Shown here one piece after another: positions 1-40,717 of a stretch of 64,000 nucleotides of DNA. Under the pieces are notes generated by a model that did not search any database, was not told the origin of the DNA, and saw only the letters and a program-made list of their open reading frames with translations. Within the stretch, counting starts at the first letter, position 1. Each line of letters begins with the position of its first letter. This DNA is from Amanita rubescens (lineage: Eukaryota > Basidiomycota > Agaricomycetes > Agaricales > Amanitaceae). The stretch is from contig WION01000068.1 of assembly GCA_015039365.1 (NCBI GenBank), positions 62,001 to 126,000 of the forward strand. The letters run 5' to 3'. The translations under genes were made by a program, and so were the position numbers.

Positions 1-376
1 GAACATCTGCGATGCTGTTCACTTGGAGCTCGGGCCTGTAGAGCATTCGACGTCTGGGCGCGTCGAAATTCGGCGTACCTTCCGAGTATGGAAGGTAGTC
101 ACGCGAATGTGACCGCAGGCTGAGGCAGATGCGTCAAAATGAATTGCGCTGGGCTGGGCGTTGCTGAGGAGGGTTCCGATGACTTGGGCATGATGCTTAT
201 GGTGAGAGCATCGCATGTGTGAAGTTTGAAGCCAAACGGTTGAGGCGGGATCGCTCCAGAGGCTTTCGACGTGAGGAGGTTGGTACCGGCTGAAGGGGAG
301 TGGCCGGTATCCGGTGGTCATGTGACACGCGCAAGACGCGTCAAATCCGTTTATCGCTAGGGGCTCCTAGCAATAA

Positions 377-520
377 TCCAAGCGGGAGGGAGCTCCGAGT
401 CCAGGAGCTCGCCGAGAATCCAGTACGGCTTCAAGAGCCGTGTACTATCCCGGTGAAGATCGAGAGGAGAGGGAGAAGGAAGATGAGACGGCCGTGAGGG
501 GACGGAAGCTAGGGCATATG
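377..520 (+). CDS. Possible exon of an unrecognised plus-strand HRE gene
   Basis: One frame is open from after a TAA at 374-376 to a GTGCGT donor-like site at 521. It encodes a charged, Ser/Arg/Glu-rich segment of 48 codons ending near KLGHM. No domain is recognisable. The next stretch (596 onward) closes after about 20 codons in the same phase, so the downstream connection is not resolved. This is only a tentative exon. Confidence 0.3.
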
Positions 521-1464
521 GTGCGTCTCTTCAAGTCTCTTCTTTCGTTTCTTCCTTTCGTTCCGTTCGGTTTGCTGATATGATTGCTGGGCTAGCGTGA
601 TGGAACTTCAACGCTGAACGGCAACCGATTTCGAGGGATAGGAAATGGGGAATAGGGACCAGATAAACATGGTCCCGGGATAACAGATGGGATTCTCCCC
701 CACACGACGTGCTTTGGGGAGAAGGGAATGGTGCAGATGCCAGGTAAGTGCCTGATATCTTTCCTGTCGACGTGGCTGACTAGCATCAGGTGTAGACGCG
801 TGTAACCGGCTGATAGCGAGGGCTTGGCCTCTCGCGCATTTCGACAGGGGGGAACGGGGCCAGGAGCGGCCCGTTTGACGTTATCGATGAAGAGGGAGCT
901 GATGGGATGCGAGGAGGGATGCAGGAGAACGATATGGAACGAGGGCTCCGGGAAAGGTATATTCTTTCCTTTTCATTTCTTCGTTTCTCGCTGACTTATT
1001 CTTTCAGCTTCATCTTATCGACTCGTAGGACTCAGCAGCAAGTTCCTATCGATTTTCTTGTCAATGAACGATAGGCGAGAGGGAGGGATTCGTTCGAATC
1101 CCGATTGTAAGCATTCGGAGAGTTCGTTTGAGCTCTCCATTGTTTTGAACGATTGATCTTAACTAACACGCCCAGCGTCTCTTCCCCTTCAAGAGAAAGG
1201 GAAAAACGGGCGTATGGATTGATGGAGGGAACTCTCGTTTGAGTTCCCGTGTGATGTTGAGGGTATAGGTAAGTTTGCTATACCCGAGGGTTATGATTTA
1301 CTGACGACGTAAATGTCACGTCGTCTTTTGTCCGTTATAGGTGGTTTACGGCCGGGAGAAGTAGTAGACGAGGTAGACGGGGAATGGCTGCGAGAAGGCA
1401 GCTTCGGGAGCAGGTACGTTCTCGTTTTCTACTTGTTTTGATTCATATTAACCGCGTTGTATAG
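521..1464 (+). other. Chain of spliceosomal-type introns on the plus strand of HRE-1
   Basis: Six segments fit basidiomycete introns: 521-595 (GTGCGT, GCTGAT, CTAG), 744-789 (GTAAGT, GCTGAC, CAG), 957-1007 (GTATAT, GCTGAC, CAG), 1107-1175 (GTAAGC, CTAAC, CAG), 1269-1340 (GTAAGT, CTGAC, TAG) and 1414-1464 (GTACGT, TTAAC, TAG). Lengths are 46-75 nt. Several contain a hairpin just after the donor site, such as GGTATAG/CTATACC around 1269. Only the last two could be tied to an open reading frame; an in-frame TGA at 1220-1222 and other stops prevent a full model upstream. Confidence 0.55.
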
Positions 1465-1591
1465 ATGCGATTATTCCGGTTCGTCGGACGATAAGGGGAG
1501 AGGACTCAGTACGAGTTCTCTCCAGGGTTTGTGTTTGAGACCTGGACAATTGTCGGTCTCGAGGGTAGGACTATGCGTCGCCCTCTCGCGT
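1341..1591 (+). pseudogene. Unknown spliced plus-strand gene, penultimate exons (5' of the Gypsy-A insertion)
   Basis: Exons 1341-1413 and 1465-1591 are joined by intron 1414-1464 and stay open in one frame. The product reads as an acidic then Ser/Gly-rich segment (for example EVVDEVDGEW, then CDYSGSSDDKGRG). The exon is cut at 1591 by Gypsy-A. If the retroelement and one copy of the 4-bp target duplication GCGT are removed, the frame continues without a break at 10083 and ends at 10256. No family is recognised and the start is not found. The gene would have been intact here before the insertion, but it is now disrupted. Confidence 0.5.
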
Positions 1592-2078
1592 TGTAACGAG
1601 CCGGTTCCGGCTACGTTGGAACCGAACACCGAAGCGCACCGCATTCCGATTCTCGGCATCACATCACGCATCACGGAAGCTTCCGAAGTCAAACCTTCGC
1701 GCCAACGACCTTCGGCCACATTCCGACAGGGCCATTCCCGCAACTTGAGCGATATTCGAACGCAACAGGGCACCTAGATGCGCACGGACCAACGGACTCG
1801 GAGGAAGGCTCGTCGCAGGTAAGCCTCATGTCCTCGTAGTATATATACGGCATTGTCTGTAGTAGTTGGACATCGAATATACAGCCGGTCTCACTTCCGC
1901 TCTCTTTCTCGTTCCCTTGCGTCCGATTTCCGTTCTCCTTCTCGCTCGGTGACTCGGTCACCGTTCCGTTCCTTCTCCTTCGCTCTCGGCACTCTATCGC
2001 ACTTAAGCACATCGGTCAGACCTCCATAGCCCCTTTGGCCGAACACTGTTCCATGTCGGCCTTCTCTTTATTGTTTCA
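1592..2078 (+). repeat. Gypsy-A 5' LTR
   Basis: Begins TGTAACGAG and ends TTGTTTCA; it matches 9592-10078 over its full length with 7 transitions. A TATA-like run (TATATATA) lies near 1839-1846, and a GTAAGC donor-like site follows GCAG at 1819, so the leader may be spliced. Confidence 0.93.
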
Positions 2079-2080
2079 AC

Positions 2081-2100
2081 TGGAGCCCACCGCGAGGGGC
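2081..2100 (+). other. Candidate primer binding site of Gypsy-A
   Basis: Two bases after the 5' LTR the sequence starts TGGAGCCCACCGCG, the usual TGG start of a site pairing with a CCA-ended tRNA. I could not match the complementary sequence to a particular tRNA. No self-priming complement was found in the LTR. Confidence 0.45.
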
Positions 2101-2361
2101 TCTTAGGTCTGTGCCCCAGCCATTCATCCTCACCGTCCTGCAGCGCAGAAGGCATCGGAAAAGTTTCCATCTCAGTTAGGTCCACGCCGAGCTAGGCCCG
2201 CCGAACCTCAGCCAGGACCATCCAGCCGACCACACGTTCCTTGGTCTTCTCGGAAGCCGACTACTCCTCAGCCTCCACCCCCTGCTCCTAAACAGCCTCA
2301 GTCCGAACCACCGACAGATCCTCCGTCATCCGATCTCTCTACTAGTTCAGCCGACGAAGAC

Positions 2362-4533
2362 TTGCACCTTCCGGGAACATTTCCCCTACCGATCAGAGAT
2401 CCAACACCTGCCGACCTTTCCTCGTTTCTAGACCTATCCGCACTCCTTGCACCGCAGTCTCCTTCACTCCTTGGCACCTCGACTCCGAAATCGCTTCAAC
2501 CGGCTCATTCACAGCACGTGCCCACTGCTTTTAGTCTATTTCCGAACTTGCCACCGCTCTCGCCCTTGACACCGATACCTGATCCGCTTACCCCTGAGCC
2601 AACCCGTCCTGCCTCACCGCGTCCTGCCTCACCTCGTCCTGCCTCACCTCGTCCTGCATCCCGTCCTACCTCGCCTACCCCTACACCGCCTCCGCCTACA
2701 CCATCTCGTTCTCCCTCACCTCCTCCTACCAAAAGCAACATGGCTACCCCGACCCGTATGCCTATCCGGACTAGCAAAGAGGCGCCCCGTTTTCAGGGTG
2801 CCGCAAGCGGTCTTGAACGCTACCTCGAGGACATCGAGATGACTTGCGAAGACCGAGAACGCTCCGGAGACGCCGAGCTTGTTAAATGGGCGATCTATTA
2901 CACAGACGAGAAATCCTCCGAAACTTGGACAGCCACCAGGGACGCGCTAGCGGAACCAAAAGCTTGGGACGACTTTAAGAAAGCGATCCGCGAGATCTAC
3001 CCCGAGGCACAGCCCGATCGACGCCACACCATTGCAGCATTGCGTACCATCACCGATCGCTACTCATCCCAGACCATTACCTCCGAGACTACTCTAGCCG
3101 AATACCACAGGGAGTTCTCCGGCACTGCTCAGTACCTCATAACTAAACACCGCATGACCGGCCGCGAGGCAAGCATCATGTACATGTCAGCCTTCGCTTC
3201 TGACATCAGACCCGATATTACTACTCGGCTCACGATCAAGTGCCCGGACGTCAGACCCGACGACGGCTACGATCTAAAGGAAATGAACAGCGCCGCACAA
3301 TTCGTTATCAGCTCCAGACCTGCGATAGCACTCCTTGCAGCTACCACGCCTCCCACGCCTGCACCCGCGCCTGCGCCAGTCGCCCCTTCCTATCCAACCG
3401 CCGCTCCGACCGCACAGGCAGCAGAAACTTTCGCCCAACGACTCTTCAACGGATGCATTTTCTGTGGAGATTCAGAGCACCGAACTCCTTGGTGCCAAGT
3501 CAGGGACGAATACGTCAGACAAGGCAAGATCAGGCTAGTTGATGGCCGCATACAGCTCCTGAATGGCGAGGAACCGAATATGGATAAATACCGAATGCAC
3601 GGACGATGGTTCAAAGAACGTGTTGATAAATGGCTTCAGGACAATCCACAGCCGAACACGCCGCAGCCACGCGTAGCCTCCGCTAACCTACTGGAGATCT
3701 CCGACCACGCTGAAACATTTGCAGCCGAACAAAAGAAAAACTCTACCGCTATGCCCCGATCCAAGCAGACCCCCGCTCCGCCACAGCCCACGACACCGCC
3801 CGTCGCTTCCACGTCCAAAGGAAAAGAAAAAGATACACCCGCTTTCAAGTTCCGCTCGCCGATCGATGACACAACCGCCGCCCAGCGAATCATAGACCAT
3901 CTTCTCAGCCTACCCGTGACCCTAGCCGCTAAGGACCTCATTGCAATATCCCCGGCCGTCCAAAAAGACTTACGTCAATTGGTTACCGCCAAACGCGTTG
4001 AATCCGCATCTAGCAATGAGGTCTCCGCCACTGAAACTGAGCCCCCGGAAGACGATCCGATCGATGTCCTCATGGCCACTACTAAGCCTATCGAGACCCT
4101 CCGAGTCGTAGACGGCACTTTCAGCGGATCCGTCAAATGCGAATGCGTCGTCGACAACGGCTCTCAGATTATCGTCATCAGAAAGGACAAATGGGAACGC
4201 ACAGGCTCCGGCTACTCCGCTTCTAGACGCATCATGATGGAAACCGCTAACGGCACATCGAACTGGACCCTTGGCATCACCGAAAACCTCACCCTGACTA
4301 TCGGCGGATTACCGGTCCAAGTCCAGGCATACATCGTGGAAGACGCACCTTACGAAGTTTTACTTGGCCGCCCATTCTTCACCCTGCTCTCCGCCGTCAC
4401 CCGCGACTACCCCAATGGCAACCAGGACATCACAATCACCTGCCCCGAATCTAAAACCTCCGCCGTCCTTGTCACACGCCCGAGATCGTCCCGCAGCACA
4501 TGCGGAGCACATACCGTCAAAACAGGTTTTTAA
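2362..4533 (+). CDS. gag: Gypsy-A Gag with C-terminal aspartic protease
   Basis: Capsid-nucleocapsid-protease precursor. The open frame spans 723 codons, but its first residue is a TTG codon. The first in-frame ATG is at 2740-2742, giving about 597 residues; the upstream part is Pro/Ser-rich with PASPR repeats. A capsid-like helical region follows the ATG. A zinc knuckle CIFCGDSEHRTPWC (C-x2-C-x4-H-x4-C) lies near 3460-3500. A retropepsin-like motif (VVDNGSQ, with Asn where Ser or Thr is usual) lies near 4150-4170, followed by a GRPF segment near 4365-4380. The frame ends at TAA 4531-4533, overlapping pol in the -1 frame. Pol could be made by frameshifting near the five-T run at 4527-4531 or from the ATG at 4500; the sequence does not decide. 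Confidence 0.85.
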   Translation: MHLPGTFPLPIRDPTPADLSSFLDLSALLAPQSPSLLGTSTPKSLQPAHSQHVPTAFSLFPNLPPLSPLTPIPDPLTPEPTRPASPRPASPRPASPRPASRPTSPTPTPPPPTPSRSPSPPPTKSNMATPTRMPIRTSKEAPRFQGAASGLERYLEDIEMTCEDRERSGDAELVKWAIYYTDEKSSETWTATRDALAEPKAWDDFKKAIREIYPEAQPDRRHTIAALRTITDRYSSQTITSETTLAEYHREFSGTAQYLITKHRMTGREASIMYMSAFASDIRPDITTRLTIKCPDVRPDDGYDLKEMNSAAQFVISSRPAIALLAATTPPTPAPAPAPVAPSYPTAAPTAQAAETFAQRLFNGCIFCGDSEHRTPWCQVRDEYVRQGKIRLVDGRIQLLNGEEPNMDKYRMHGRWFKERVDKWLQDNPQPNTPQPRVASANLLEISDHAETFAAEQKKNSTAMPRSKQTPAPPQPTTPPVASTSKGKEKDTPAFKFRSPIDDTTAAQRIIDHLLSLPVTLAAKDLIAISPAVQKDLRQLVTAKRVESASSNEVSATETEPPEDDPIDVLMATTKPIETLRVVDGTFSGSVKCECVVDNGSQIIVIRKDKWERTGSGYSASRRIMMETANGTSNWTLGITENLTLTIGGLPVQVQAYIVEDAPYEVLLGRPFFTLLSAVTRDYPNGNQDITITCPESKTSAVLVTRPRSSRSTCGAHTVKTGF
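2609..2668 (+). repeat. Short tandem repeat encoding PASPR units in Gypsy-A gag
   Basis: A 15-bp unit resembling CCTGCCTCACCTCGT is repeated about four times, encoding PASPRPASPR-type residues in the proline-rich leader of the gag frame. Confidence 0.8.
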
Positions 4534-7500
4534 TTGTCGATGAATCGCCCACACGGAGACGAGACGCTCGGAATCCGCAGTCGCCCACCAAACATGTCAA
4601 TAATGAAGAACTGCCAAACGTACATACATCTACGCCGCACATACACGATATCACACCCACAACCATCTTTAATCAACCGACGATCGCTAATCCCGCTGAC
4701 CCCGATGCCACTACGCCAACGCCCGAAACTACCGACGCGCCGACCGTTTACACAGTTGGAAAGGGAGACAACCCATACCACTTGTCGGAGGAGCATTTCT
4801 TGGACATGTTGACCGCGCCCAGAATGATCGGTAATATACTCTTACCTTACAACGGACATATCAGTACTACAGAGCTCGAATTTAATTTTGTCCCCGCCGC
4901 CGAAACACTAGCATATAAGAAAGTCGCCAACCGAATTAAGCCAGTCGCTACCACGCTACCCGAGAAATTCCGAATTATCCGCCGCATACCATCCGATCCC
5001 CTCGCCGATCTCCCTACCCTTCCGACACAGCCACCGGACTTTACCCCAGGAACCCGATACACCGAAGAACGAATGCAGGCACAAAATATCAACCCCACTG
5101 GATTCTTAACTGCTGAAGAAGAAAAGCTCATCCACCATCTGATCCGCATACACGAAGAAGGCTTCGCATGGACCGAAGCAGAAAAAGGGAAGTTCTCCGA
5201 CGACTACTTCGACCCCGTGGTGATTCCGACCATTGAACACGTGCCCTGGACGCTAAAGAACATGCCGATTCCGCCTGGCAAATACAACGAGATCGTACGC
5301 ATCATCAAAGACAAAATCGCTTCCGGAGTCTACGAGCCGTCCAGCTCATCCTATCGGTCCCGCTGGTTCTGCGTTTACAAGAAAGACGGGAAATCATTGC
5401 GCATCGTCCACGACCTACAGCCGCTTAACGCCGTCACTATCAAAGACTCTGGACAGCCGCCAAACGTAGAACTACTCGCCGAGTCATTTGGTGGGTACTC
5501 ATGTTACGCTACCTTTGATCTATTCGTCGGTTTTGACCAGCGCCGCCTTGCCACCGAATCCCGAGACCTTACGACCTTCCAAACGCCTCTCGGTACCTTC
5601 CGCCTCATGTCTATTCCGATGGGATACACCAACTCGATGCAGATCCAGCACGGCGACCTCACCTATATCCTTCAAGATGAAATTCCGCATGTCACCAAAC
5701 CCTTCGTCGACGACTGCCCCTGTAAAGGACCGAAAACCCGCTACGAGCTCCCCGACGGAACCTTCGAGACCATCCCCGAAAATTCTGGCATCCGACGCTT
5801 CGTATGGGAACACATCCAGAACATTAACCGAGTTATCCAACACGTCAAACAAGCCGGCAGTACCTTTTCCGGAAAGAAGTCATTTTTCTGTATTCCAGAA
5901 GCTATCGTCGTCGGACACAAATGCACTTACGAAGGACGCCTTCCGGACAACTCACGAATCGAAAAGATCAGGAACTGGCCTATCCCCGAATCTATCACCG
6001 AAGTTAGAGGTTTTCTAGGAACTATGGGCACCATCCGCATCTACGTCAAAGACTATGCCGAACACGCTCGCTCACTCTCGGAACTCCTACGGAAGGGCGT
6101 CGAGTTCGAATTTATTGGTCACCATATCGCCGCCTTCGAGAACCTCAAGCTCATCGCTATCAATTGCAACGCCATCCGAGGCATCGACTACGAATCACTT
6201 CTCGAGGTTATCCTAGCCGTCGACTCATCCTGGTACGCTGTCGGATACTGGCTATCACAGATCGGTCCCGACAAGAAGCGCTATCCGAACCGCTATGGAT
6301 CTATTACCTTCAACGAGCGAGAACAACGATACTCCCAGGCCAAACTCGAGCTTTACGGACTCTTCCGCGCGCTCAAAGCTACCCGGATATTCATCATCGG
6401 CGTCAAAAATCTTGTAGTCGAGGTGGACGCTAAGTATATTAAAGGAATGATCAATAACCCGGATATCCAGCCAAATAACACGATTAACAGATGGATAGCA
6501 GGAATCCTCCTCTTCGACTTCAAACTTCGCCACGTCTCCGCAAAGAAGCACACTCCCGCCGACGGATTATCTAGGCGCCGAGCATCCGAAGAGGACGAGC
6601 CTCCAGACGACTCCGACCCGGACGACTGGATTGACGAAGCTAACGCATTCTGTATCGAGGCCGCCAACTGGACTTTCAAGCCGCACCTCACCGCCGCATG
6701 CTATGCCACCGGAACTGACGGCCCCGACATATTCTCCCGATCCGAAAAACAGCTAGCCCGAGACGCCGACATACTCAGGATTGAAGCCTACCTCAAAAAC
6801 CCGCAACGGCCGCCCGACATGTCAGCCGATCGATTCCGACAATGGCTCAACAAGGCCAAGCGATTCTTTATTCAAGGCGACCGGCTCTGGTACCGAGACG
6901 ATCACCGCCGACACAAGCTCGTCATCCTCAACGACTCCAAGCGACTACAGATCATACAGGAAGCACACGATGACACCGGACACAAAGGCATCTTCGCGAC
7001 TCGCGCTCGTATCCGAGACCGTTTCTGGTGGTCCTCCCTTGACTACGACGTTAAATGGTACGTCCGGACGTGTCATAACTGCCAGATCCGAAACGCCCAA
7101 CGCCTACACATTCCGCCGACTGTTCCAGAGCCCGGAGGTCTCTTCCGAATCGTACACATGGACACCATGAAGATGCCAGCATCCGGCGGATTTACCTACA
7201 TCACGCAAGCAAGATGCTCTCTCTCCGCATGGCCCGAGTACAAAATGCTCCGCTCCGAAAACGCAACAGCTATCGCCAAGTTCATATTCGAAGATATTCT
7301 CTGCCGCCACGGAGCCATAGAAGTCATTGTCACCGACAACGGAACGCCATATGTAGCTGCTCTAGAAGTCCTCCGCCACCGATACGGTATCAACCACATC
7401 CGAATATCCCCATACAACTCACAGGCCAATGGCATCGTCGAACGCCGACATTTTGACGTCCGAGAATCTCTCATCAAAGCAGCCGACAGTAAACCCGAGA

Positions 7501-8180
7501 AGTGGAGTCAAGTCGCGCCATCCGTATTCTGGGCCGAGCGCATTACAATACACCCATCTACTGGCTACAGCCCATACTTCATCACCCACGGAACCAAGCC
7601 GACACTGCCCCTCGACATCTCGGAAGCCACTTACCTTTGCCCGCCGATTACATCCGAGCTCTCGAGACAGGACTTGCTTGCCCACCGTGCCCGACAGCTA
7701 CAGAAACGTCCGGCCGATCTCAAAATCATCCGCGACAAAGTCTACAAGTCCCGGCTTAACGCCGTTCACAAGCTTGAGCAGCGCTTCCAGCATACGATCA
7801 AGAACTTCCGCTTCAAGAAGGGAGATTTAGTCCTCGTCCGTAATAACAAGATCGATATGGAACTCGATCGTAAAACAAAACCCCGGTACCTCAGACCGAT
7901 GGTCGTTATCCGGAAAACCCAAGGAGGATCGTATATACTCGCCGAGACCGATGGAACCCTTTCTAAGTTACGGTACGCAGCCAAACGTTTAATTCCTTAC
8001 CGATCACGCAGTATTGCACCGGGTGAGCGGCTTTCACAATTACTTAATAGATCCGATGAGGAGCTTTATACGATGACACACGACTCGCCTGACGAAGCCT
8101 CCCTCGCTGACGGCGATGGTGATGGTTTCATTGATGAGGCACTAACGGAGGTCGATGACCTACCCGAGTCTGAACTCTGA
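4500..8180 (+). CDS. pol: Gypsy-A Pol: reverse transcriptase, RNase H, integrase
   Basis: 1226-codon frame in the -1 phase relative to gag, with 34 bp of overlap. RT palm motifs include KKDGKSLRIVHDL and, at about residues 402-405, FVDD in place of the usual Y-x-DD. RNase H begins near residue 570 (AVDSSW). The integrase zinc domain has H...H and CHNC near residues 823-860. The catalytic triad is D (HMDTM, about 887), D (TDNG, about 945) and E (VERRH, about 980), with D-to-E spacing close to the D35E pattern. A basic module with KKGDLVLVRNN near residue 1105 resembles the GPY/F region. No chromodomain follows. The frame is intact, so the product could be functional if FVDD is tolerated. Confidence 0.92.
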   Translation: MRSTYRQNRFLIVDESPTRRRDARNPQSPTKHVNNEELPNVHTSTPHIHDITPTTIFNQPTIANPADPDATTPTPETTDAPTVYTVGKGDNPYHLSEEHFLDMLTAPRMIGNILLPYNGHISTTELEFNFVPAAETLAYKKVANRIKPVATTLPEKFRIIRRIPSDPLADLPTLPTQPPDFTPGTRYTEERMQAQNINPTGFLTAEEEKLIHHLIRIHEEGFAWTEAEKGKFSDDYFDPVVIPTIEHVPWTLKNMPIPPGKYNEIVRIIKDKIASGVYEPSSSSYRSRWFCVYKKDGKSLRIVHDLQPLNAVTIKDSGQPPNVELLAESFGGYSCYATFDLFVGFDQRRLATESRDLTTFQTPLGTFRLMSIPMGYTNSMQIQHGDLTYILQDEIPHVTKPFVDDCPCKGPKTRYELPDGTFETIPENSGIRRFVWEHIQNINRVIQHVKQAGSTFSGKKSFFCIPEAIVVGHKCTYEGRLPDNSRIEKIRNWPIPESITEVRGFLGTMGTIRIYVKDYAEHARSLSELLRKGVEFEFIGHHIAAFENLKLIAINCNAIRGIDYESLLEVILAVDSSWYAVGYWLSQIGPDKKRYPNRYGSITFNEREQRYSQAKLELYGLFRALKATRIFIIGVKNLVVEVDAKYIKGMINNPDIQPNNTINRWIAGILLFDFKLRHVSAKKHTPADGLSRRRASEEDEPPDDSDPDDWIDEANAFCIEAANWTFKPHLTAACYATGTDGPDIFSRSEKQLARDADILRIEAYLKNPQRPPDMSADRFRQWLNKAKRFFIQGDRLWYRDDHRRHKLVILNDSKRLQIIQEAHDDTGHKGIFATRARIRDRFWWSSLDYDVKWYVRTCHNCQIRNAQRLHIPPTVPEPGGLFRIVHMDTMKMPASGGFTYITQARCSLSAWPEYKMLRSENATAIAKFIFEDILCRHGAIEVIVTDNGTPYVAALEVLRHRYGINHIRISPYNSQANGIVERRHFDVRESLIKAADSKPEKWSQVAPSVFWAERITIHPSTGYSPYFITHGTKPTLPLDISEATYLCPPITSELSRQDLLAHRARQLQKRPADLKIIRDKVYKSRLNAVHKLEQRFQHTIKNFRFKKGDLVLVRNNKIDMELDRKTKPRYLRPMVVIRKTQGGSYILAETDGTLSKLRYAAKRLIPYRSRSIAPGERLSQLLNRSDEELYTMTHDSPDEASLADGDGDGFIDEALTEVDDLPESEL

Positions 8181-8290
8181 ATGCTCCGAGGATATGCATA
8201 TAGTTTTTGCTACAAAGTACAGGTACATTCGTTTAATCACTTCTTATTACAGGAGCCCGCGACGAGCACCGAACCCGAGTCCTCCGAATC

Positions 8291-9481
8291 CTACGCCTTG
8301 CCCTTGCCCTTGCCCTTGCCCTTGCTCTTCGCCTGGGGAACCTCCTCGGCCATCTCCTCCCTTAGCTCCTTCATGTCTGCCTGCAGGTCCTCCACCGACC
8401 GCTTGTAAAGGTCCTGGAATCTCGTCAGCTTCCTCTCCAGCCTGCCGATACGATCCTCATAGCCCGCCTTCGTCTTACCCGCTCCCGAACCGCCTTCAGA
8501 ACCCGTCTCCACGTCACCGGCCTCCTTCAGATCCGTCTTGCTACGCCTACGCGGAGGTTGCTCCTCCGGACTACTCCCAACCTCGATCTTCCGTTTATCT
8601 GACCGAGACGGCGTCTTCACCGACGAGCCCGATACCCCAAGTGCGCCTACACCTCGCGCCAAAGACGACGGAATGCTCTTAGCAGCCGACGACGCGACGC
8701 TTGAGGATCGCACGACAGGAGCATCCGCACCAGGCATGGCGCACCTTACCTTCTTCGCTCGACACAGATCGCATGCCGTATGGTCACCGGAGAAGACACA
8801 GGCCTTATTCAGCCTTACGCAAGTTTCGCAGCGCTGCGATTCGGGCATCAGCTGAGGGACCGCGACATAGTCCATCACCAACGTACCTGTTGAAGGGAAA
8901 TCAACTCTGAACCGACAGCCGGAGCGACCTTACTGCATGTAGTACGAGGCCTCGGCGCAGGTCTCTTGAAATCGACGACTGGCACTTCTGGGACAGTTTG
9001 ACGGCCAGCAGGTGCACCCGCATGCGACGACCTTTCTAGGACGCTACTCCGCGCAACCGAACCGGAACTGATATGGCTCGCAGAGTCCTCTGGACGCAAA
9101 CTCGCCCCGGAGGAGGACCTTGCCAGGTTCACCGTTGTACTAAGTTCTCGTAGACCGACGCCGAGCTTATCGTACTGGACGAGGCCATCCGTGATGACTG
9201 AAACAAGCTTTGTCGTTGACCCCGCATCTGCAAGCTCCCGGCTATACGTCCGGATCTTCTCCTGGACACGATTAGTTTCCGCCAACGACAACGTACCCCT
9301 TACTCACCACGTCGTTCTTCGCCAGCTCTAGCCATTTCCGGACATCCCCCTCATTGCTCAAGTTTACTTCCCCCTCTGGCACATCCAGCAACCGCTCGCC
9401 AAACGCCTCGACGTGCTTGTCCAGCTTGCGCGCTATCAGCTTCGTGACACTGCTCCCACCGCCTGCGGATACGGCCGACAT
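8291..9481 (-). CDS. Antisense three-exon gene in Gypsy-A encoding a Zn2Cys6-pattern protein
   Basis: A minus-strand gene lies between pol (ends 8180) and the 3' LTR. Exon 1 is 9481-9308 from an ATG at 9481. Intron 1 is 9307-9262 (GTGAGT, CTAAT, CAG, 46 nt). Exon 2 is 9261-8887. Intron 2 is 8886-8834 (GTACGT, CTGAT, CAG, 53 nt); an acceptor at 8852 would also keep the frame. Exon 3 runs to 8291. All junctions are phase 0, giving about 363 residues. Exon 3 opens with six cysteines spaced C-x2-C-x6-C-x8-C-x2-C-x6-C, which fits the fungal Zn(II)2Cys6 pattern, although the basic loop (CDLCRAKKVRC) is in the second half. An RRRSK patch, a coiled-coil-like helix and a KGKGKGKGKA tail follow. The likely role is nuclear, nucleic-acid binding; this is inference from the motif. 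Confidence 0.65.
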
Positions 9482-9591
9482 GATTGTAGAAGAGGAAGAG
9501 AAGAACCCACCCTCCACTCCCCTCTATCTCTTATCGCCCTCTTATCTCCTCGGACCTGACCAGGAGGTCAGTATTAAAAGACCCCGGGAGG

Positions 9592-10078
9592 TGTAACGAG
9601 CCGGTTCCGGCTACGTTGGAACCGAACACCGAAGCGCACCGCATTTCGATTCTCGGCATCACATCACGCATCACGGAAGCTTCCGAAGTCAAACCTTCGC
9701 GCCAACGACCTTCGGCCACATTCCGACAGGGCCATTCCCGCAACTTGAGCGATATTCGAACGCAACGGGGCACCTAGACGCGCACGGACCAACGGACTCG
9801 GAGGAAGGCTCGTCGCAGGTAAGCCTCATGTCCTCGTAGTATATATACGGCATTGTCTGTAGTAGTTGGACATCGAATATACAGCCGGTCTCACTTCCGC
9901 TCTCTTTCTCGTTCCCTTGCGTCCGATTTCCATTCTCCTTCTCGCTTGGTGACTCGGTCACCGTTCCGTTCCTTCTCCTTCGCTCTCGGCACTCTATCGC
10001 ACTTAAGCACATCGGTCAGACCTCCGTAGCCCCTTTGGCCGAACACTGTTCCACGTCGGCCTTCTCTTTATTGTTTCA
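9592..10078 (+). repeat. Gypsy-A 3' LTR
   Basis: Pairs with 1592-2078 and is preceded by the purine-rich tract AAAAGACCCCGGGAGG at 9576-9591, the expected plus-strand primer. It is followed by the second GCGT target copy at 10079-10082. Confidence 0.93.
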
Positions 10079-10082
10079 GCGT

Positions 10083-10256
10083 ATTGGAACGAACGAGGGC
10101 CAGGAGGTATTCCCGAGGACGCGGTGTCAAACGGATGGACGGGGAGGACTCGATGGTAAGTCAGAGTTCGTTGTAACTCTCCGTTTTTTAGGCTCGGACG
10201 AATCTAATACGACTCGCCACGAGTTTCTTCCCTTTTTACAAAAGGAAGGGTTATAA
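10083..10256 (+). pseudogene. Last exon of the plus-strand HRE gene (3' of the Gypsy-A insertion)
   Basis: 58 codons including the TAA at 10254-10256, in frame with 1341-1591 once the insertion and one target copy are removed. The end reads RHEFLPFLQKEGL. It converges on the giant minus-strand frame that ends at 10411. The intergenic stretch 10257-10410 holds an 8-bp perfect hairpin (10265-10272 with 10278-10285) that could act in transcript ending, and a GTGAGT...CTGAT...CAG intron-like unit near 10311-10372 that is also present in HRE-2. Confidence 0.5.
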
Positions 10257-10410
10257 TTAAGCATGGAGACTCTCAGGGAGTCTCCTTCCGAGTAATTTGA
10301 TTAAGTAGGTGAGTTGTAAGTTCATAACTTGATAGCATTCATTTTGCTGATATATATTTTCATAAATTACAGATTTACATGTGTGGAGGGCTCGAGATTA
10401 GCCCTCCGAA

Positions 10411-13400
10411 TCAATTCGCAATTGCCACAAGAGGCCGAGCGACGAACGAGACGAGGGAACGGCGATAACGTGAAGATATCGCGGGAACGCTCGTGAATCG
10501 GGAGATGACATCTGACAGTCGTCGCGGTCTCAGGTGGTTGATGCGAAGAAGATTGGACGGTATGGGCAGTATTTGTACTGCCCGATATAAGGGTGAGTGT
10601 TCGTCACCCGTATTGATTGTCTTACTGACGACGAAGTAGCTTTCAAGTCGTCTCCGGTTGACCGCTACGTTGGGCGGTTTACAGCGGGCGCGCCAAATGC
10701 GTTCAACGCACGCAGAACCAGGAGTTTCTGCCCACCACGAAAGCTCAGGCGGAAGTGAGGGTAGCGAGTTCGTTGTGGCCTTGACGTCGACATAGGCATA
10801 AGGAGAGGCTGAAGTGGGAGACTCGTCGTCCTCGATGTACTCGTGGATGATTGTGTACTCCGTCTCTTCGGTCTCGTGATTGCGGATCGCGTGGAAGGTA
10901 ATGACACTGAGGACCCGCGTCATTCTCGACAACATGTCAAGACTACAGCCAGGGGCAAGAACGACAGCTTGGCAGGTGTGTTTGGGTATATGTGGTATGA
11001 GTACTACCATGGGCCGAGGTGAGTACTGGCTCGTACTCAAGCCGAAATTGGCATTAACGATATCCATAGGACGTCGTTGGGAGCTTCCGAGTCCTGAGAC
11101 AGGAAGCTCCGAGGGCTTTTGTTGGAGCTGGTCGACACTCAGCTGAAGGAACAGGGGAACCAGCTTGAAATCGGCTGGTATAGGTGAACGCGGCAGAGGG
11201 ACCACAGGAGAATCAGTTGAGTACCAAATTGTACTCGTTTTCACGTTGTTGATAGCGCATAGGTCGCGCTGTCTAGTTACTGCTCCATTGGATTGCCGTG
11301 AAGCATCTTGAGGGGATGAGGGGCCGGATTGCAGAGTTCTCCCGGTCTTGGATAAGATGGGGGAAGGCTCGTTGCTTTCGGCTTTTGATTCAGGTGAGCG
11401 TAAGATTGCGCTCTCCGGGTTGATTGATGTATTGACGACATCACAGGAACGTCGTCGGGATGTAAGAAGCCAGTCGAGATTAAGACTCGGCTGTGTGAAT
11501 GGATGGACCAGCCGATGCAAGTCAAGCAAGCCTGGTCTCGGCTGGAACGGTGGAGAGGCCTGCGTAGGGTAGGCGGACGCAGACGAATAGAACGGCGTGT
11601 GGGCCGTGTTGGGTACAGGTGAGTGTGGATTCACACTCATTCCGTTATTATTGACAGCAGGCTGATCTAGCTGTCGTATTCCTGTTTCGTCGGACAGTTC
11701 GCGGGTATAAAGGGCTTCTTCGACAAGCTCTTTGTCGTTAACGGCCTTAACGTGCCGTTCTGAGCAACTTTCCCGTACATTGTCAGTGGGAACGTTGCAC
11801 GCAAGTTTGGGACACTGCGAGATGGAATCCGAATATCTTGAAAGGGAGAGCTCGTTGGCTCTCCGGATCTCGGGCTGTTGAAGAGCAGCTTCGGATCGTA
11901 TAGGAGAAGGCTCCAAACCTTCGGGTTCAGGTGAGCGTACAGTTACGCTCGTTTCTGTCTCTTTATTGACGACTCGTGTGTTCAGTCGTCTAGAATCGGA
12001 TTCGGGCTCAACAACCTTGTCAGGTGGACCTTTGGGGCTTCGACAAACGGATTCGTTACAGGTGAGGGAGCGTCGATTCATACGCTCCCGAATATATGCA
12101 GCAGCTCTCGCGAGCTGTCCTCCTTCATTCCTCGAAGGAGTTAAGGTATGTTGTGACTGTCTTCGAGCAGTCCCGGGATAAGGTGAGTGTAGTTGTTCAC
12201 TCGCCGATGATTTCTTATTGACGACATTTAGGATATGTCGTCTGGGTACCACCTCAACAGGTGGTGAAGGCTCGTCCGAAGATGGACGAGCGGATGTTGT
12301 TGGTGCAGAGCGGATGTATGAGGGAACGGAAGCGGAGAGTAGCAGCGTGGAAGCTGCTGTTGCAAGTTTAGGTGCGTCATCTTCACTTCTATTGATCTTA
12401 TTATTAACGATGGCATCGCAGATCCGCCGTTTCTCCCCCATTTCATTCGAAAATGAAGTAGTTTGGGTTTGTGCGCCAGCGAGTGTTTGGGATTGATTAG
12501 AGCACTCGACGGAGCGCTCACAGATTCCGGAGGACTGAGATAGTCCTCCCTTGGTTTCAACAATTTGTGAGGCTTCTCCCGCAACGGGAGAAGATGAAAT
12601 TTCACCAATCAGTGTTGAAGTAGATCCATTGGAGACCCGAGAGAGGGTCTCCGTCAAACGGTGTGTAGTATTACTATTTACTACATGATTCGTACTTACG
12701 ACGCTCGATGCGTGTCGTTTCGAGATTACAGGGAAAGGTGGCGAAGCCTTGTCATTGGAAGGACGAGTAGGAGGAGCCCGAGTTGAGGATACAATGACGG
12801 GCGAGGGTTTCGACAGCAAGGAGGCTGTCTTGGGCGCAGGTAGGTGCTTAACTGCACTCGTTCCTTTCGTAGGGTTGACTTCTGCCTTTCCAACAGGTGG
12901 CTTCTCGACGTTCCGACGTTTCGGAAGGGGAGCCGAGATAATTCGGCCAGAAGACTTGATGCCGATACGGGAGTTTCCCTTTGGGGACTCTCTGTTATTG
13001 AGAACGGTCTGCTTAGACTGTTCTCGAGCCTTGGCGGGTACACTGGGCGAAGGCCGGGAGATGGGCAAAGCCTTCTCCGGGGCAGGCTTGACGGATACAG
13101 GTCTTCGAGCCTGTGTGGGCTTGTGAGGAATATTCGGGGGACTCTTAATGAGTCCCGGGGTTTCAGGATGACTGTCCGACTTCGCAGAGCTTGGACATGC
13201 TTCAGAACGAGCCAGTTGAACTCGTTTGAGCGTATTTCGAGTCTCGGGAGTCGAGACTCTCTTAATGGCTTCTTCCATTGCTTGCGGATGTACTTCTTCA
13301 AGAGAAGATTGTCGTGAAGGGCCAGGATGGATAGGAATGGCGATAGGAGTGAATACTGGCAGAGTAGAGGCTGCCGAAGTTTCAGGTATGGGGTTTTCAT

Positions 13401-15555
13401 TATTTTCTTTTTGTTTACTAATAACGGCGTCTAGCGTACGCCGTTTCTCCCCCGTTTCATCAAAGGACAAAGGGGAGATGACTGGCTCGTTGGCAAGTCG
13501 TCCAGATTGGATGGAATGCTCTTCGGAGCGTTCCGGGATGTTTTCGGGAAGTCTGCAAGGACTTCCGAGTGTTTCCATAGCTCGATTGAGCTGTTCTGGT
13601 CCTCCTGTGCTGAGACCAGATGGTGTTTTACCAAACGGCCGGTTGGCGGTTGGTAACGATGCTCCAGAACGAGCATCTGACCTTAGGTGAGCTTTTCTGC
13701 TCACTACTTGTTTTGTACTAACGACGTTAGGCGTACGCCGTTTAGAAACATTCGAAAGGGACAGCTTAGGCTCGTTCATGAGCCGGTTTGAAGGGATGGC
13801 CCGTAAAGAGGAGACGGGCATGAGATTAGATAGCGTGAGGGCTGTCTCGGTCGAAGGTGCGTGTTCTGACATGTAGGCTTGTTCCTTTGTGCTAACGATT
13901 GTGTTTTCCCTTTGAGGTATCAGCCTGGACGCGACTTCTGAACAAGGAACGCGTAAAATAGTGGCGGGGACAACTCGAGCCTTGGCCGGCTTTTCGACAG
14001 GTACAGAAGATTTGGCTAGTTGTCGACCTTCAACACACGTAGCGGGCTTCGACGAAGTACAGGAGACAGTCGTTGCTGTCTCCGTTGATGATTCTGAAGG
14101 GGACTTCCAATGGAAGTCAGCTTTACGGGCTTTGGACAGCTCGTTGTCCGTTAGGGAGCTCCGGGAGTTCCGTTGGAGTTCCCGAGGTATAGAGACGGAG
14201 CCCGGCTTCAACGAGCTCGGACGTGTTTGGGAACGAGTCATTTGAACTCGTTCCAATGCGTTTCGAGACTCAGAAGTCGAGTCTCTCTTTTCAGCTTCAT
14301 ACATGACTCGTGGAGAATCGTGTTTCACGGGAATGGTTGAAGGAGAGGTTTTGGGCGTATCACGCACGATAGGGATAGGCGAGGAGATGGGAACGGAGTC
14401 CGGCAGCTTGAGGGCTGCTGAGACGGTTTCAGGCGAGTCTTGTTCCTCGTCTTTTGCGTGTATACTAACGACGGAGTTGCAGACCCGTCGTTCCTCCCCA
14501 ATTTCATCCGAAAGGGAGGGAATTTGAACTTGCGCATCAGCGAATCCAAGTATCGACGTGGAGCGCTCAATTACGCGCTCCTTCGGCATTTCGGGAAGCG
14601 TACTAAGCGCACTTCCCTCCGGTTCAAATAACATATCTGACGGCGGTTGGGGATGATTCACGGACGACTCGGAGGTTCTAGGAACCTCCTGTTTCACTCG
14701 AGGTGTGAAATCAGCCTTGGGACGCGTCGTGTCGCGTGATATCGCACACGAGCTTAAGTTTATGTTATAGGGCAAACTGAACTCATGTTCGCCCGAATTA
14801 ATAGGCGTATAAGTCTTAGGGAACATATTGGAGACTCTTGAACGAGTCTCCGAAGTTTGTTGCGTAGCGTTCATATTGTTCACTACTAGTACATGACTTG
14901 AATCTACCAAGCTCGACGCGTGCCGTTTTGGGGAAGGAGTCTGAGCCGACATTCCTTCCGTCTTACTAGCGTGTGCGCCGAGACTGAGAGAATGTTGGGA
15001 GATGGATAATACCATCTCCGAAGTGGACTTAGTTGTGGGATAAGTTGCGGGTTTTCGAGCTGGCGTAAGCTCGTAGGCAGCGGCCAAGGGACTTGTCTTG
15101 AGTCCTGGGAGAGTAGGGAACATGTCCGGCTCTGTAGCAGAGCGCGTCGGACTTCCTTCAGAACGAGCTGGGGGTCGAGTTCGTTCTGGCGTGATGAGCC
15201 AAGTCTCGTGAGCTGAGACTCTTAAGTTGGCTGTGATGGATGTTCGTGGGCAGGTTCCTTCGTAGGAAGCGGACTGTAGTGGGTCGGGACGGATGGGAGC
15301 GTAAGCGTAATAAATCGGCGTTGTCGTCTTTTCGAGTTTGCTTTCTATCTGGCGTATAAGTTCTTTGCAGAGCTTGTCTTGCCTTTCCGTGTGATCCAAC
15401 CATCTAGCCAAGGTGCTCGGGGCGATGTTTGGCAGTGCGCGTCCGAGTTTGCGTGAATTATGAGAAGGGCCCGTGGGGTCCTTGTTCCGAGGGCTTGTTT
15501 TCCTCGGGATGTTCAAGCGTGGAGGCTCCGAGTATCGGGAGCCTCCGAGGGTCAT
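10411..15555 (-). CDS. Giant intronless 1714-codon frame of HRE-1, low-complexity Ser/Pro/Thr/Glu/Arg protein
   Basis: A single uninterrupted frame starts at ATG 15555 (MTLGGSR). I recognise no catalytic domain. The sequence looks disordered and contains many diverged internal repeats with the pattern R-R-x3/4-[ND]-[VI]-V-[NS], followed 8-14 residues later by S-P-x-P, and blocks like GEKRRICDAIV. The C-terminal part (TEETEYTIIHE, LPPELSWWAETPGS) is the most conserved with HRE-2, as are the first 20 residues (GGSR...PP...IPR.T.PR). A frame this long is very unlikely by chance, and its homologue in HRE-2 is open apart from one frameshift, so I favour real coding. In one aligned 34-codon stretch third positions vary most, but a neighbouring stretch does not show this. 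The function is unknown; scaffold-like or nucleic-acid binding is only a guess. Confidence 0.65.
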   Translation of the reverse strand: MTLGGSRYSEPPRLNIPRKTSPRNKDPTGPSHNSRKLGRALPNIAPSTLARWLDHTERQDKLCKELIRQIESKLEKTTTPIYYAYAPIRPDPLQSASYEGTCPRTSITANLRVSAHETWLITPERTRPPARSEGSPTRSATEPDMFPTLPGLKTSPLAAAYELTPARKPATYPTTKSTSEMVLSISQHSLSLGAHASKTEGMSAQTPSPKRHASSLVDSSHVLVVNNMNATQQTSETRSRVSNMFPKTYTPINSGEHEFSLPYNINLSSCAISRDTTRPKADFTPRVKQEVPRTSESSVNHPQPPSDMLFEPEGSALSTLPEMPKERVIERSTSILGFADAQVQIPSLSDEIGEERRVCNSVVSIHAKDEEQDSPETVSAALKLPDSVPISSPIPIVRDTPKTSPSTIPVKHDSPRVMYEAEKRDSTSESRNALERVQMTRSQTRPSSLKPGSVSIPRELQRNSRSSLTDNELSKARKADFHWKSPSESSTETATTVSCTSSKPATCVEGRQLAKSSVPVEKPAKARVVPATILRVPCSEVASRLIPQRENTIVSTKEQAYMSEHAPSTETALTLSNLMPVSSLRAIPSNRLMNEPKLSLSNVSKRRTPNVVSTKQVVSRKAHLRSDARSGASLPTANRPFGKTPSGLSTGGPEQLNRAMETLGSPCRLPENIPERSEEHSIQSGRLANEPVISPLSFDETGEKRRTLDAVISKQKENNENPIPETSAASTLPVFTPIAIPIHPGPSRQSSLEEVHPQAMEEAIKRVSTPETRNTLKRVQLARSEACPSSAKSDSHPETPGLIKSPPNIPHKPTQARRPVSVKPAPEKALPISRPSPSVPAKAREQSKQTVLNNRESPKGNSRIGIKSSGRIISAPLPKRRNVEKPPVGKAEVNPTKGTSAVKHLPAPKTASLLSKPSPVIVSSTRAPPTRPSNDKASPPFPVISKRHASSVVSTNHVVNSNTTHRLTETLSRVSNGSTSTLIGEISSSPVAGEASQIVETKGGLSQSSGICERSVECSNQSQTLAGAQTQTTSFSNEMGEKRRICDAIVNNKINRSEDDAPKLATAASTLLLSASVPSYIRSAPTTSARPSSDEPSPPVEVVPRRHILNVVNKKSSASEQLHSPYPGTARRQSQHTLTPSRNEGGQLARAAAYIRERMNRRSLTCNESVCRSPKGPPDKVVEPESDSRRLNTRVVNKETETSVTVRSPEPEGLEPSPIRSEAALQQPEIRRANELSLSRYSDSISQCPKLACNVPTDNVRESCSERHVKAVNDKELVEEALYTRELSDETGIRQLDQPAVNNNGMSVNPHSPVPNTAHTPFYSSASAYPTQASPPFQPRPGLLDLHRLVHPFTQPSLNLDWLLTSRRRSCDVVNTSINPESAILRSPESKAESNEPSPILSKTGRTLQSGPSSPQDASRQSNGAVTRQRDLCAINNVKTSTIWYSTDSPVVPLPRSPIPADFKLVPLFLQLSVDQLQQKPSELPVSGLGSSQRRPMDIVNANFGLSTSQYSPRPMVVLIPHIPKHTCQAVVLAPGCSLDMLSRMTRVLSVITFHAIRNHETEETEYTIIHEYIEDDESPTSASPYAYVDVKATTNSLPSLPPELSWWAETPGSACVERIWRARCKPPNVAVNRRRLESYFVVSKTINTGDEHSPLYRAVQILPIPSNLLRINHLRPRRLSDVISRFTSVPAISSRYRRSLVSFVARPLVAIAN

Positions 15556-16150
15556 ATGGATAGCTTCGGGTTCGCTCTAGGTGGTTATAGAACGAGTAGC
15601 TTATTCGTAGAATTGAAATAGCTTGGACAATGTCACAAGCGTCGTTTCGGGTTTCTGGAGTCCGGAACGCGAGATGGAGGTTCTAGAGAACCTCCAGGGG
15701 GTATTGGGGTGGTTGTATAACACTTTCCTGGTGTTGTAGAAGGTAGATGGTTTTTCGAGAGAGAGATTTCTGGTTGAAATCTTCCAAATGGGAAGATTGG
15801 CACAGTACACTTGTGAAAGTGCAAAAAAGTGTAACGTTCTTACTGAAAGGAACCTAATAAGGTTCCAACTTAATCACCCCTTGCGTCTTGCACTGAATCA
15901 ACGTGTATATGTGATACCGTGCAGTGTACGCGAGTGGGGTAAAGTAAGGTGTAAGATGATGTGTCACAAAGTGTGACAACCTACTATATATGTACCATAA
16001 CATAACTATCTACGAGAATAGGGGAAATCTATCTACAAGGGAGTTAATGGATAACTCCCATCCTTGTATTCGGAGATCCCAAGGGGATCTCCCATCTTGA
16101 TGAAGGTCTTGATGAATATGTACGAGAGCTACATAGTAGCCCCGTTACAG
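15556..16150 (-). promoter_or_regulatory. 5' region of the giant HRE-1 gene and right terminus of the element
   Basis: On the minus strand the element starts CTGTAACGGGG at 16150. It passes a 9-bp hairpin (16072-16080 with 16084-16092) and a TATA-like TATATAT at 15985-15991, then a run CACTTTTTTGCAC, before the ATG at 15555. HRE-2 has the same order: terminus, GGAGATCC hairpin, TATA at 40595-40600, CACTTTTTTGCAC, then ATG. The shared layout supports a promoter in the terminal 600 bp. Confidence 0.5.
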
Positions 16151-20772: not shown

Positions 20773-20844
20773 TTTACAAGTTGTAGCTTTGATAACGTGC
20801 AAATGGTCGACTTTAAATTTTCTGTTAGAATTTGTTAAAGCCGG

Positions 20845-20855
20845 GGCCCATAACC
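20845..20855 (-). other. Copia-1 primer binding site, internal tRNA-iMet type
   Basis: On the minus strand the leader starts GGTTATGGGCCCCGG. GGTTATGGGCCC is complementary to the anticodon arm of initiator tRNA-Met (CAU in context). Drosophila copia uses this kind of internal half-tRNA primer rather than a 3' CCA end. Confidence 0.7.
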
Positions 20856-22748: not shown

Positions 22749-22749
22749 T

Positions 22750-35232: not shown

Positions 35233-35581
35233 GTATGTCTCTTTTTCCTTTCGGCTCTCCTGTACCTCCACTAACTGCGGCATGCGCTAGACGTGGTTTT
35301 CCTGAATACGCGAGTGTCCAATGGGTAGGTCAGAAGACTCAATAGTATCTTCCGTAAGTTTTCCGAGATTTAGCTTAGCTTTCGGTTGGTTTATTATTTC
35401 TTAGCGAATCGCGATTGACTCGCCGAGTCCCTTCCCCTTCAAACGAAGAGGAGCAAATTAAGTGTTCGGAGACTCTGGTGTGTCTCCGTGGTTGTAATTG
35501 ATTAAGTTGATTAATTAAGTGAGTCGTTAACTCGGATATAGTCGTTTTGCTGATAAATATCTTCATAATTTACAGGATTTA
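35233..35581 (+). other. Plus-strand introns and degenerate 3' exons in HRE-2
   Basis: Introns fit at 35233-35290 (GTATGT, CTAAC, TAG) and 35354-35404 (GTAAGT, TAG), with a third from a GTGAGT near 35520 to TTACAG near 35575 that is also present in HRE-1 at 10311-10372. The last exon 35405-35461 is open for 19 codons to TAA and resembles the end of the HRE-1 plus-strand gene (PFPFKRRG versus FLPFLQKEG). The exon 35291-35353 has stops in all phases, so the gene is broken or the model is wrong. Confidence 0.4.
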
Positions 35582-35601
35582 CAAGCTTGAGGGACTCGGA
35601 A

Positions 35602-40295: not shown

Positions 40296-40717
40296 TAGGA
40301 TGATTCTGGTTCGCTCTATGTGGGTGTAGAACGAGTGGGTGTTAATCTTGAATATATTTGATGTTCAACTTTCAAGTTTGAAAGTTGCCAAGCACGTCTG
40401 CACAGGGTAGTGCAAAAAAGTGTAAAGAGGTTAAGATGATAGTGGTTATTCCTTATACAAACACCCGTTGCGCCAACAGTGTGCACTGGACCAAGATATA
40501 TTCTTGAGACGTGCTATGTAGCGTAGGTGGGTAAAGTATAGGATGATTATGTAATGTGTCAATGCGTGAATATACAGTCACGCGTGACTTCAACTATATA
40601 CAGTATATCTATGGGAGTTGTCCACAGCTCCCCGGTCTTCAGGCTTGGAGATCCTCTGGATCTCCGACATCATGAATATCCATATGGCTTCAGGCAGCTC
40701 TTGTAGCTACCTTACAG
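40296..40717 (-). promoter_or_regulatory. 5' region of the HRE-2 giant gene and element terminus
   Basis: The same order of elements as in HRE-1: terminus 5'-CTGTAAGG at 40717, a GGAGATCC/GGATCTCC hairpin (40647-40654 with 40658-40665), TATA-like TATATA at 40595-40600, and CACTTTTTTGCAC upstream of the ATG. Confidence 0.5.

Follow-up and report, generated by a model that had tools for sequence, protein, structure and literature searches.

Why would a transposable element carry short stem-loops along its whole length? We addressed this question in a 64,000-nucleotide stretch of the Amanita rubescens genome (contig WION01000068.1, positions 62,001 to 126,000; hereafter, the window), for which an initial annotation, made from the letters alone, had described a dense field of short perfect hairpins running through an entire mobile element, HRE-1, and through a second one, HRE-2. 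HRE-1 is a long terminal repeat (LTR) retroelement of A. rubescens, approximately 8 kb long, whose sense strand is the minus strand of the window; the genome assembly of this mushroom comprises 75.7 Mb in 786 contigs. As described below, the hairpins were in large excess over shuffled controls and their stems were conserved between copies, and we tentatively attribute them to selection on the folding of single-stranded copying intermediates.

Excess of Perfect Stems in HRE-1 and HRE-2

In 11 stretches of the window, we searched for perfect stems closed by loops of 3-10 nt and compared each count with 60 dinucleotide-preserving shuffles. At 10079-16150 (HRE-1), 39 stems of at least 7 bp and 23 of at least 8 bp were found, against shuffled means of 2.3 and 0.6, respectively. 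The continuation of HRE-1 at 1-1591 contained 8 stems of at least 7 bp against 0.5, and HRE-2 (35000-40600) contained 33 against 2.2, in line with the placement of the field in the initial annotation. On the other hand, Gypsy-A (1592-9891), which had been said to lack the field, indeed showed no excess (4 against 3.1 at 7 bp or more, and 0 against 0.7 at 8 bp or more). A density in Gypsy-A and Copia-1 equal to that in HRE-1 had been named as evidence against the claim; Gypsy-A was at the shuffled level, whereas the Copia stretch (16151-21000; 8 against 2.0) had a fourfold excess compared with 17-fold in HRE-1. The excess of stems of at least 7 bp was milder or nil in all six stretches outside the HREs and Gypsy-A, i.e., the Copia stretch, 22490-28301 (6 against 2.0), 28302-35000 (17 against 4.5), 40601-45000 (4 against 3.4), 45000-52000 (10 against 4.0) and 52000-60000 (5 against 2.6).

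Stems were found in the LTR, coding and non-coding parts of HRE-1 alike, so that the field does extend through the entire element, and each 8-kb copy has about 60 perfect hairpins of at least 7 bp, plus further near-perfect ones. Seven of the eight hairpins quoted in the initial annotation were exact, whereas that at 13000-13010/13015-13025 carries one mismatch; between 13000 and 13790, where about ten stems had been counted, stems were dense as stated but numbered 16 (non-overlapping, at least 5 bp, loop 3-12). No common loop motif stood out by eye among 60 listed stems. A known RNA family was rejected as a candidate, with no Rfam match at gathering score within the window. For a transposon, perfect 7-8-bp stems at 17 to 40 times the shuffled level, conserved in coding and non-coding DNA alike, make an unusually strong structural signal.

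Within the 1714-amino-acid (aa) frame of HRE-1, 30 stems of at least 7 bp and 17 of at least 8 bp were present, whereas 200 synonymous-codon shuffles gave means of 2.8 (maximum 6) and 0.9 (maximum 4), indicating that the stems are not dictated by the encoded protein. The excess thus held over both the dinucleotide and the codon control that had been proposed as checks. An origin of the stems in coding, in which a repetitive Arg-Arg...Val-Val protein pattern would force complementary codons, was rejected and can be given next to no weight, given that the shuffles retain the protein and lose the stems, that stem starts fall in every codon phase (6, 13 and 11), and that the non-coding tail and the LTR bear stems too. 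What speaks for it is a recurring Arg-Arg/Val-Val codon unit that forms stems in frame, such as the stem at 13423..13445, to which similar coding units are found elsewhere and a like stem in the non-coding tail. The pairing register relative to codons was also uneven (18, 11 and 1 of the 30 stems), indicating that the hairpin and protein codes are not fully independent.

Conservation and Compensation of Stems

Lineage counts in the HRE-1 clade were made on seven full or near-full copies with loops of 3-12 nt, and the copy in the window (H1) was left out as kin of the copy on contig C87; in the HRE-2 clade, L031 was left out, being 99% identical to HRE-2. Each of the seven copies had 56-68 stems of at least 7 bp (40 in the 6-kb part of H1), and all eight HRE-2-clade copies had 21-47 against 2.3-3.4 in shuffles. 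Lineages that differ by about 20% had stems at corresponding positions. Specifically, 131 distinct helices were recognized in the HRE-1 clade, 88 of them alignable in all seven lineages; by the threshold used, 25 of these were intact in seven lineages, 65 in at least four and 6 in none. When 384 alignable stems were each compared with the other lineages, 353 had an intact counterpart, 25 were one mismatch off and 6 were two or more off.

The rate of change in loops and flanks was 2-3 times that in stem sites. Divergence from four close copies was 6.8% in stems of at least 7 bp, 21.9% in loops and 18.9% in flanks, and the corresponding values for four far copies were 16.7%, 39.2% and 35.7%. In the frame (from about codon 303), stem sites were slower at codon positions 1, 2 and 3 alike (0.09-0.15 against 0.20-0.26 in three comparisons), and the non-coding stretch after the frame showed a contrast in the same direction, but with only 1/48, 3/56 and 3/56 stem changes. 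Note that the two LTRs of a copy were 99.4-100% identical in 8 of the 9 copies compared (98% over a truncated stretch in the C780 copy), indicating that the differences between copies arose mostly in active lineages.

Compensated pairs were directly visible in alignment blocks; an example is the covarying stem in Table 1. Among 919 pairs compared with the close copies, 85 had one-sided and 19 had two-sided changes, 17 of the latter being Watson-Crick, while about 4 two-sided changes are expected under independence at 6.8% per site. Across the HRE-1 clade, 83 of 948 changed cells (8.8%) were compensatory against 2.2-3.4% in six slid controls, and for stems present in at least three copies the values were 60 of 385 (15.6%) against 0.8-4.0%. 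We give shares in preference to raw counts (83 against 19-30, and 60 against 4-15) because the slid controls hold fewer Watson-Crick-majority cells, which makes shares the fairer measure.

Loop Lengths, Wobble Pairs and Folding Energy

We calculated enrichment by loop length for stems of at least 6 bp pooled over eight copies. It was 1.0-fold at loop 0, 1.9-fold at loop 1, 4.3-fold at loop 2 and 3.3-fold at loop 3, reached 8.8-, 7.2-, 10.6-, 9.4- and 6.3-fold at loops 4-8, and was 1.1- to 1.2-fold from loop 16 up, a profile that fits hairpins folded within one strand better than dyads in double-stranded DNA.

Were the constraint on sense RNA alone, G·U changes should be better tolerated than A·C changes. 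Wobble was counted after dropping pairs whose letters were present in fewer than six copies or whose majority pair was not Watson-Crick or not dominant. In the HRE-1 clade, pairs in at least three copies gave 27 G·U, 65 A·C and 18 other changes, against 102, 123 and 66 expected at linker rates (nominal p 0.002), and pairs in at least four copies gave 14, 49 and 16 against 83, 100 and 54 (nominal p 0.0002); these p values are nominal because the lineages are mosaic. Single-lineage A·C events outnumbered G·U events in all seven HRE-1-clade lineages, 31 of the 48 helices with events had more A·C and 12 had more G·U, and the helix bootstrap gave an A·C/G·U ratio of 1.53-4.06 against 1.21 predicted by mutation alone. 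In the HRE-2 clade, stems in at least two copies gave 44 G·U, 45 A·C and 50 other changes (expected 113, 116 and 160). A static count of one-mismatch stems in ten segments gave 50 G·T (chance 6.3) and 60 A·C (chance 13.2), with transversion mismatches near chance (45 against 38.6). Simulated A·C/G·U ratios were 0.29-0.59 under a sense-RNA constraint, 0.96-1.61 under a symmetric constraint and 3.24-4.07 under an antisense constraint, while a neutral model gave 0.79-2.88 and left few stems. With no preference for sense G·U pairs, sense RNA alone is unlikely to be the molecule under constraint.

Folding z-scores could not settle the strand. They were -2.0 to -3.1 for sense and -1.8 to -2.2 for antisense, with sense-antisense differences of -0.53, -0.42, -0.19 (within its error) and -0.83. 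The two strands of the Gypsy and Copia controls were about 0.5 apart, in either direction, and better folding than in shuffles was seen in a non-HRE stretch as well (28302-35000; z -1.4 and -1.6).

HRE-1 and HRE-2 as Non-Autonomous LTR Retroelements

HRE-1 copies without Gypsy-A have 320-base direct repeats at both ends, with TG...CA termini, and complete aligned copies are 8.0-8.4 kb long. Target duplications of 5 bases (TGCGG, AACCG and TGCAA) were found in three of the six copies whose flanks were examined, and were absent in H1, C87 and the truncated C780 copy. A polypurine tract abuts the 3' LTR (GGGGGAGGA followed by TGTAACG, 26 exact places in the genome), and CTTTTTTGCACTTTCAC, which does not begin with TGG, follows the 5' LTR at a conserved junction that is common to a gag-bearing family described below. 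Copy counts are lower bounds, since 40 of a larger number of candidates were scored, giving at least 42 matches to an HRE-1 piece and at least 40 to the LTR. HRE-1 is split by Gypsy-A and extends past the window, its 3' LTR lying some 290-610 bases to the left of position 1. HRE-2 is matched by L031 down to about 35267, and a search for its 3' LTR found none.

The 1714-aa frame matched nothing in Pfam, and seven short open reading frames (ORFs) in the rest of HRE-1 gave no match that reached the cut-off. HRE-1 thus has no recognizable gag, protease, reverse transcriptase, RNase H or integrase, the set that defines an autonomous Ty3/gypsy element. HRE-1 and HRE-2 belong to a non-autonomous LTR retroelement family of A. 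rubescens. The frame itself probably yields a protein under loose constraint. Over 1359-1364 of its 1714 codons, indels were multiples of three in 12/12, 16/17 and 13/15 cases in three comparisons, and the ratio of nonsynonymous to synonymous substitution rates (dN/dS) was 0.64-0.70, which together suggest a translated frame; the exceptions were a one-base difference near the frame end (C148 and C780) and a 584-base insertion (C780), and stop codons were found at aligned codons in C121 (two) and C780 (one). A profile search over the best 7983 word-sharing candidates gave 26 related proteins, of which the 6 with a species name are all from A. rubescens. Two of the related sequences, P0009 and P0010, share an N-terminal stretch (residues roughly 30-170), folded and charged by eye, that is missing from the HRE-1 protein. 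In the C780 copy (L023-L024), the 584-base insertion, which lies within the frame, ends in an intron-like TTTTTTTGCAG, and a deposited protein, P0002, comes from C780.

Several further observations concern the copies. C87, L029, L030 and the HRE-1 copy without target duplication look mosaic, adjacent stretches matching other lineages at very different identity, which suggests recombination between element lineages. A relative of HRE-1 (L025, 78% identical) lies at the same coordinates, 3875-4777, on contigs C471, C462, C441, C430, C158, C78 and C21, and near 12460 on four other contigs, as if a large common block ended these contigs. A telomeric element was rejected, as no exact five-fold TTAGGG was found in the assembly (variant repeats were not searched). 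A search for relatives in viral contigs gave 20 stretches that fit a pattern, none of which was confirmed. Published work reports that recent LTR insertions make up a large share in A. rubescens (PMC7550596).

The cis signals of HRE are common to a gag-bearing family of Ty3/gypsy type, namely LTR similarity, the primer-site junction and the polypurine junction. A scan for the LTR/primer-site junction gave 25 places. Eighteen are exact and seven deviate by one or two letters; CTTCCAC is read at six of the seven, among them L040, a member of the gag-bearing family. Over the 140-260 bases that can be aligned, the LTR of L040 shares about 74-77% identity with HRE LTRs, and the 516-aa ORF1 of L040, without Pfam match, is followed by Retrotrans_gag (E 1.1e-6), with weak Ty3_capsid (E 1.4e-4) and CCHC-knuckle (E 0.003) matches that are both below their cut-offs. 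A related protein, P0031, has ORF1-like sequence together with Retrotrans_gag. There are 19 gag matches in the genome. On three contigs, C36, C87 and C223, such a match is followed 6.7-8.2 kb downstream by the polypurine junction. L040 also carries stems of at least 7 bp, in small numbers (ORF1 6 against 0.8, LTR 2 against 0.2, gag part 3 against 0.2). From these cognate junctions, HRE is probably copied in trans by the gag-bearing family.

Explanations for the Hairpin Field

Taken jointly, the reading that we prefer, with limited confidence, is that HRE is a trans-copied non-autonomous LTR family whose hairpins are kept by selection on single-strand folding, minus-strand complementary DNA (cDNA) included. 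The hairpins would then be retained through the folding of single-stranded replication intermediates, and would matter in minus-strand cDNA and perhaps in genomic RNA too. Minus-strand cDNA is single-stranded during the copying cycle; it is a natural candidate for this reason and because its G·T pairs correspond to sense-strand A·C. If both strands contributed, the symmetric wobble pattern of the HRE-2 clade would be explained. Hairpins in the cDNA could compact the strand, prevent its misfolding and annealing, and protect it until the second strand is made; which intermediate folds, and whether the fold serves compaction, protection, avoidance of misfolds or packaging, may differ from what we propose. 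A narrower version, in which the whole element including its 5-kb frame is selected for hairpins in minus-strand cDNA rather than RNA, as a structural code read on first-strand DNA in reverse transcription, is unlikely. Several results weigh against selection on single-strand folding that includes cDNA. The A·C excess of the HRE-1 clade was repeated neither in the HRE-2 clade (45 against 44) nor in the static count, and folding was stronger on the sense strand in all four copies, which leans to sense RNA. The HRE-2 clade showed no compensation signal (15 two-sided events restoring and 25 not, in stems in at least two copies), so that compensation is clear in one clade only; note that this alignment is much more diverged (55-88% identity) and maybe poor in places. 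Single mismatches were frequent (85 against 17 compensated changes), indicating that any one stem is weakly selected. Finally, the copying of HRE by the gag-bearing family is itself putative, as are its transcription and packaging.

The initial annotation had offered an RNA-structure constraint, a DNA cruciform or packaging code, or a by-product of copying. With a coding origin set aside above, these have to be weighed together with an antisense transcript. A plain sense-RNA constraint, with dispersed recognition or packaging signals or compaction of genomic RNA for capture by the partner's particles, is somewhat unlikely; it agrees with the conserved folding, with loop sizes of 4-8 nt, with the stronger sense z-scores and with stems in LTR, coding and non-coding parts alike, and RNA viruses are reported to have dispersed packaging signals (PMC6281560). 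The wobble changes were, however, unlike those expected of sense RNA, given that sense G·U was depleted as much as A·C (HRE-2 clade) or more (HRE-1 clade), unlike in the simulated sense-RNA model, and no common loop motif was evident. If the hairpins formed in an RNA of opposite polarity that regulates the element, this would explain why sense A·C, which is antisense G·U, was the best-tolerated single change in the HRE-1 clade, in 7/7 lineages; since this excess was confined to that clade and the observed ratio of 2.4 falls below the simulated antisense range (3.2-4.1), such a transcript is a quite improbable source of the constraint. A cruciform or dyad-binding code in double-stranded DNA would fit the strand-symmetric mismatches of the HRE-2 clade and is nevertheless very improbable, because perfect palindromes (loop 0) were not enriched, loop 1 was enriched just 1.9-fold, and loops of 3-12 nt are too variable for a fixed dyad spacing.

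The by-product of copying found little support. Here, intrastrand correction or template switching in reverse transcription would make and repair inverted repeats without selection, and strand-symmetric mismatches, near-perfect Watson-Crick stems and compensatory changes would follow from hairpin-templated correction; the mosaic look of the copies also fits. We nevertheless regard it as improbable, as unbiased correction should not cut stem divergence, which was 2-3-fold lower, single changes exceeded compensated ones (85 against 17), and most stems were intact in another lineage. The stems are slow and mostly common to lineages, and the lineage-unique ones are mostly one mismatch from their nearest relative, which disfavours a mutational origin. 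The idea that bursts of template switching recently produced most stems was rejected because only 6 of 384 stems lay two or more mismatches from the nearest counterpart. Structure-protected mutation alone was also rejected, by reasoning rather than simulation, as a threefold lower rate should not yield a 17- to 40-fold excess. HRE would be of use in either case: if cDNA is the constrained strand, the family would be a natural system for asking whether single-stranded DNA folding is selected in retroelements, and if RNA is, it would be a dense dispersed-signal system for trans-packaging. The many young copies in one mushroom genome allow comparative tests.

Relation to Known Elements

The initial annotation knew of no fungal transposon class defined by such a field. 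The element itself is classifiable, as a non-autonomous LTR type tied to a Ty3/gypsy-type family. Large retrotransposon derivatives (LARDs, Triticeae) and TRIMs are non-autonomous LTR groups whose RNA structures are said to be well conserved (PMC7215508). In contrast to both, HRE-1 keeps its 1714-aa frame open, and its structure consists of many short perfect hairpins, each separate from the others. The open frame suggests that HRE-1 falls outside the LARD definition of a large internal domain without a protein product; structure is conserved in HRE, whereas the wobble tolerance of a sense RNA was looked for and not found. TRIMs are short with almost no internal domain, whereas complete aligned copies of HRE-1 are 8.0-8.4 kb, with a 5.1-kb frame in H1.

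Maize Copia elements are reported to have an abundant palindrome consensus, CACCGGACNNNGTCCGGTG, with structures concentrated in LTRs (PMC10760457). Both systems are LTR elements with short perfect hairpins whose loops are tiny, whereas the maize motif is one recurrent consensus and HRE stems differ in sequence and cover the LTR, frame and non-coding parts. The family of L040 resembles HRE in its LTR, its near-identical LTR/primer-site junction and its hairpins in LTR and ORF1, and differs in having Retrotrans_gag and the weak CCHC-knuckle match. RNA viruses can have genome-scale ordered RNA structure with many local hairpins through coding sequence, and such structures are expected to tolerate G·U pairs. 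Local coding hairpins are thus common to both, whereas HRE is an LTR retroelement whose stems show no G·U preference. No hairpin- or palindrome-rich fungal LTR element was found in the open-licence literature, a scope that makes this absence weak.

Features of the Window and Minor Observations

Coordinates are collected in Table 1.

Table 1. Positions of HRE-1, HRE-2, Gypsy-A and two example stems in the window.
Feature	Position	Strand	Description
HRE-1 5' LTR	15830..16149	-	320 bp, TGTAACGGGG...CGTTACA; four perfect stems of 7-9 bp
HRE-1 primer-site position	15813..15829	-	Directly inside the 5' LTR; not TGG-initial; junction common to gag-bearing family
HRE-1 open frame	10411..15555	-	1714 aa, rich in Ser and Pro by eye; without Pfam match; 30 perfect stems of at least 7 bp
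HRE-1 non-coding part	10079..10410	-	Frame stop to Gypsy-A insertion; stems 10385-10407 and 10265-10285
HRE-1 beyond Gypsy-A	1..1591	-	No long frame; 8 stems of at least 7 bp
Gypsy-A	1592..10078	+	Inside HRE-1; 487-bp LTRs 1592-2078 and 9592-10078; internal negative control
HRE-2 5' LTR-like region	40421..40716	-	296 bases (bounds by eye), then the primer-site letters of HRE-1
HRE-2 internal part	35267..40420	-	Diverged clade; open frames 37395-40295 and 35602-37326; 33 stems of at least 7 bp in 35500-40500
Example stem	13423..13445	-	AACGGCGT-(7)-ACGCCGTT
Covarying stem	12220..12242	-	GACGACAT-(7)-ATGTCGTC; C148 GACGACGT/ACGTCGTC, C780 GACGACGC/GCGTCGTC

The LTRs of Gypsy-A begin with TGTAACGAG, are 99% identical over their first 300 bases, and have GCGT on both flanks. 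Outside the HREs, one kilobase (32000-33000) holds eight perfect stems of at least 7 bp, and distinct from these is an inverted repeat at 32769-32970 whose arms are 71 bases long. A long inverted repeat at 46457-47068, with 247-base arms that are 96% complementary and spaced by 118 bases, is related to direct repeats between 45730 and 51383.

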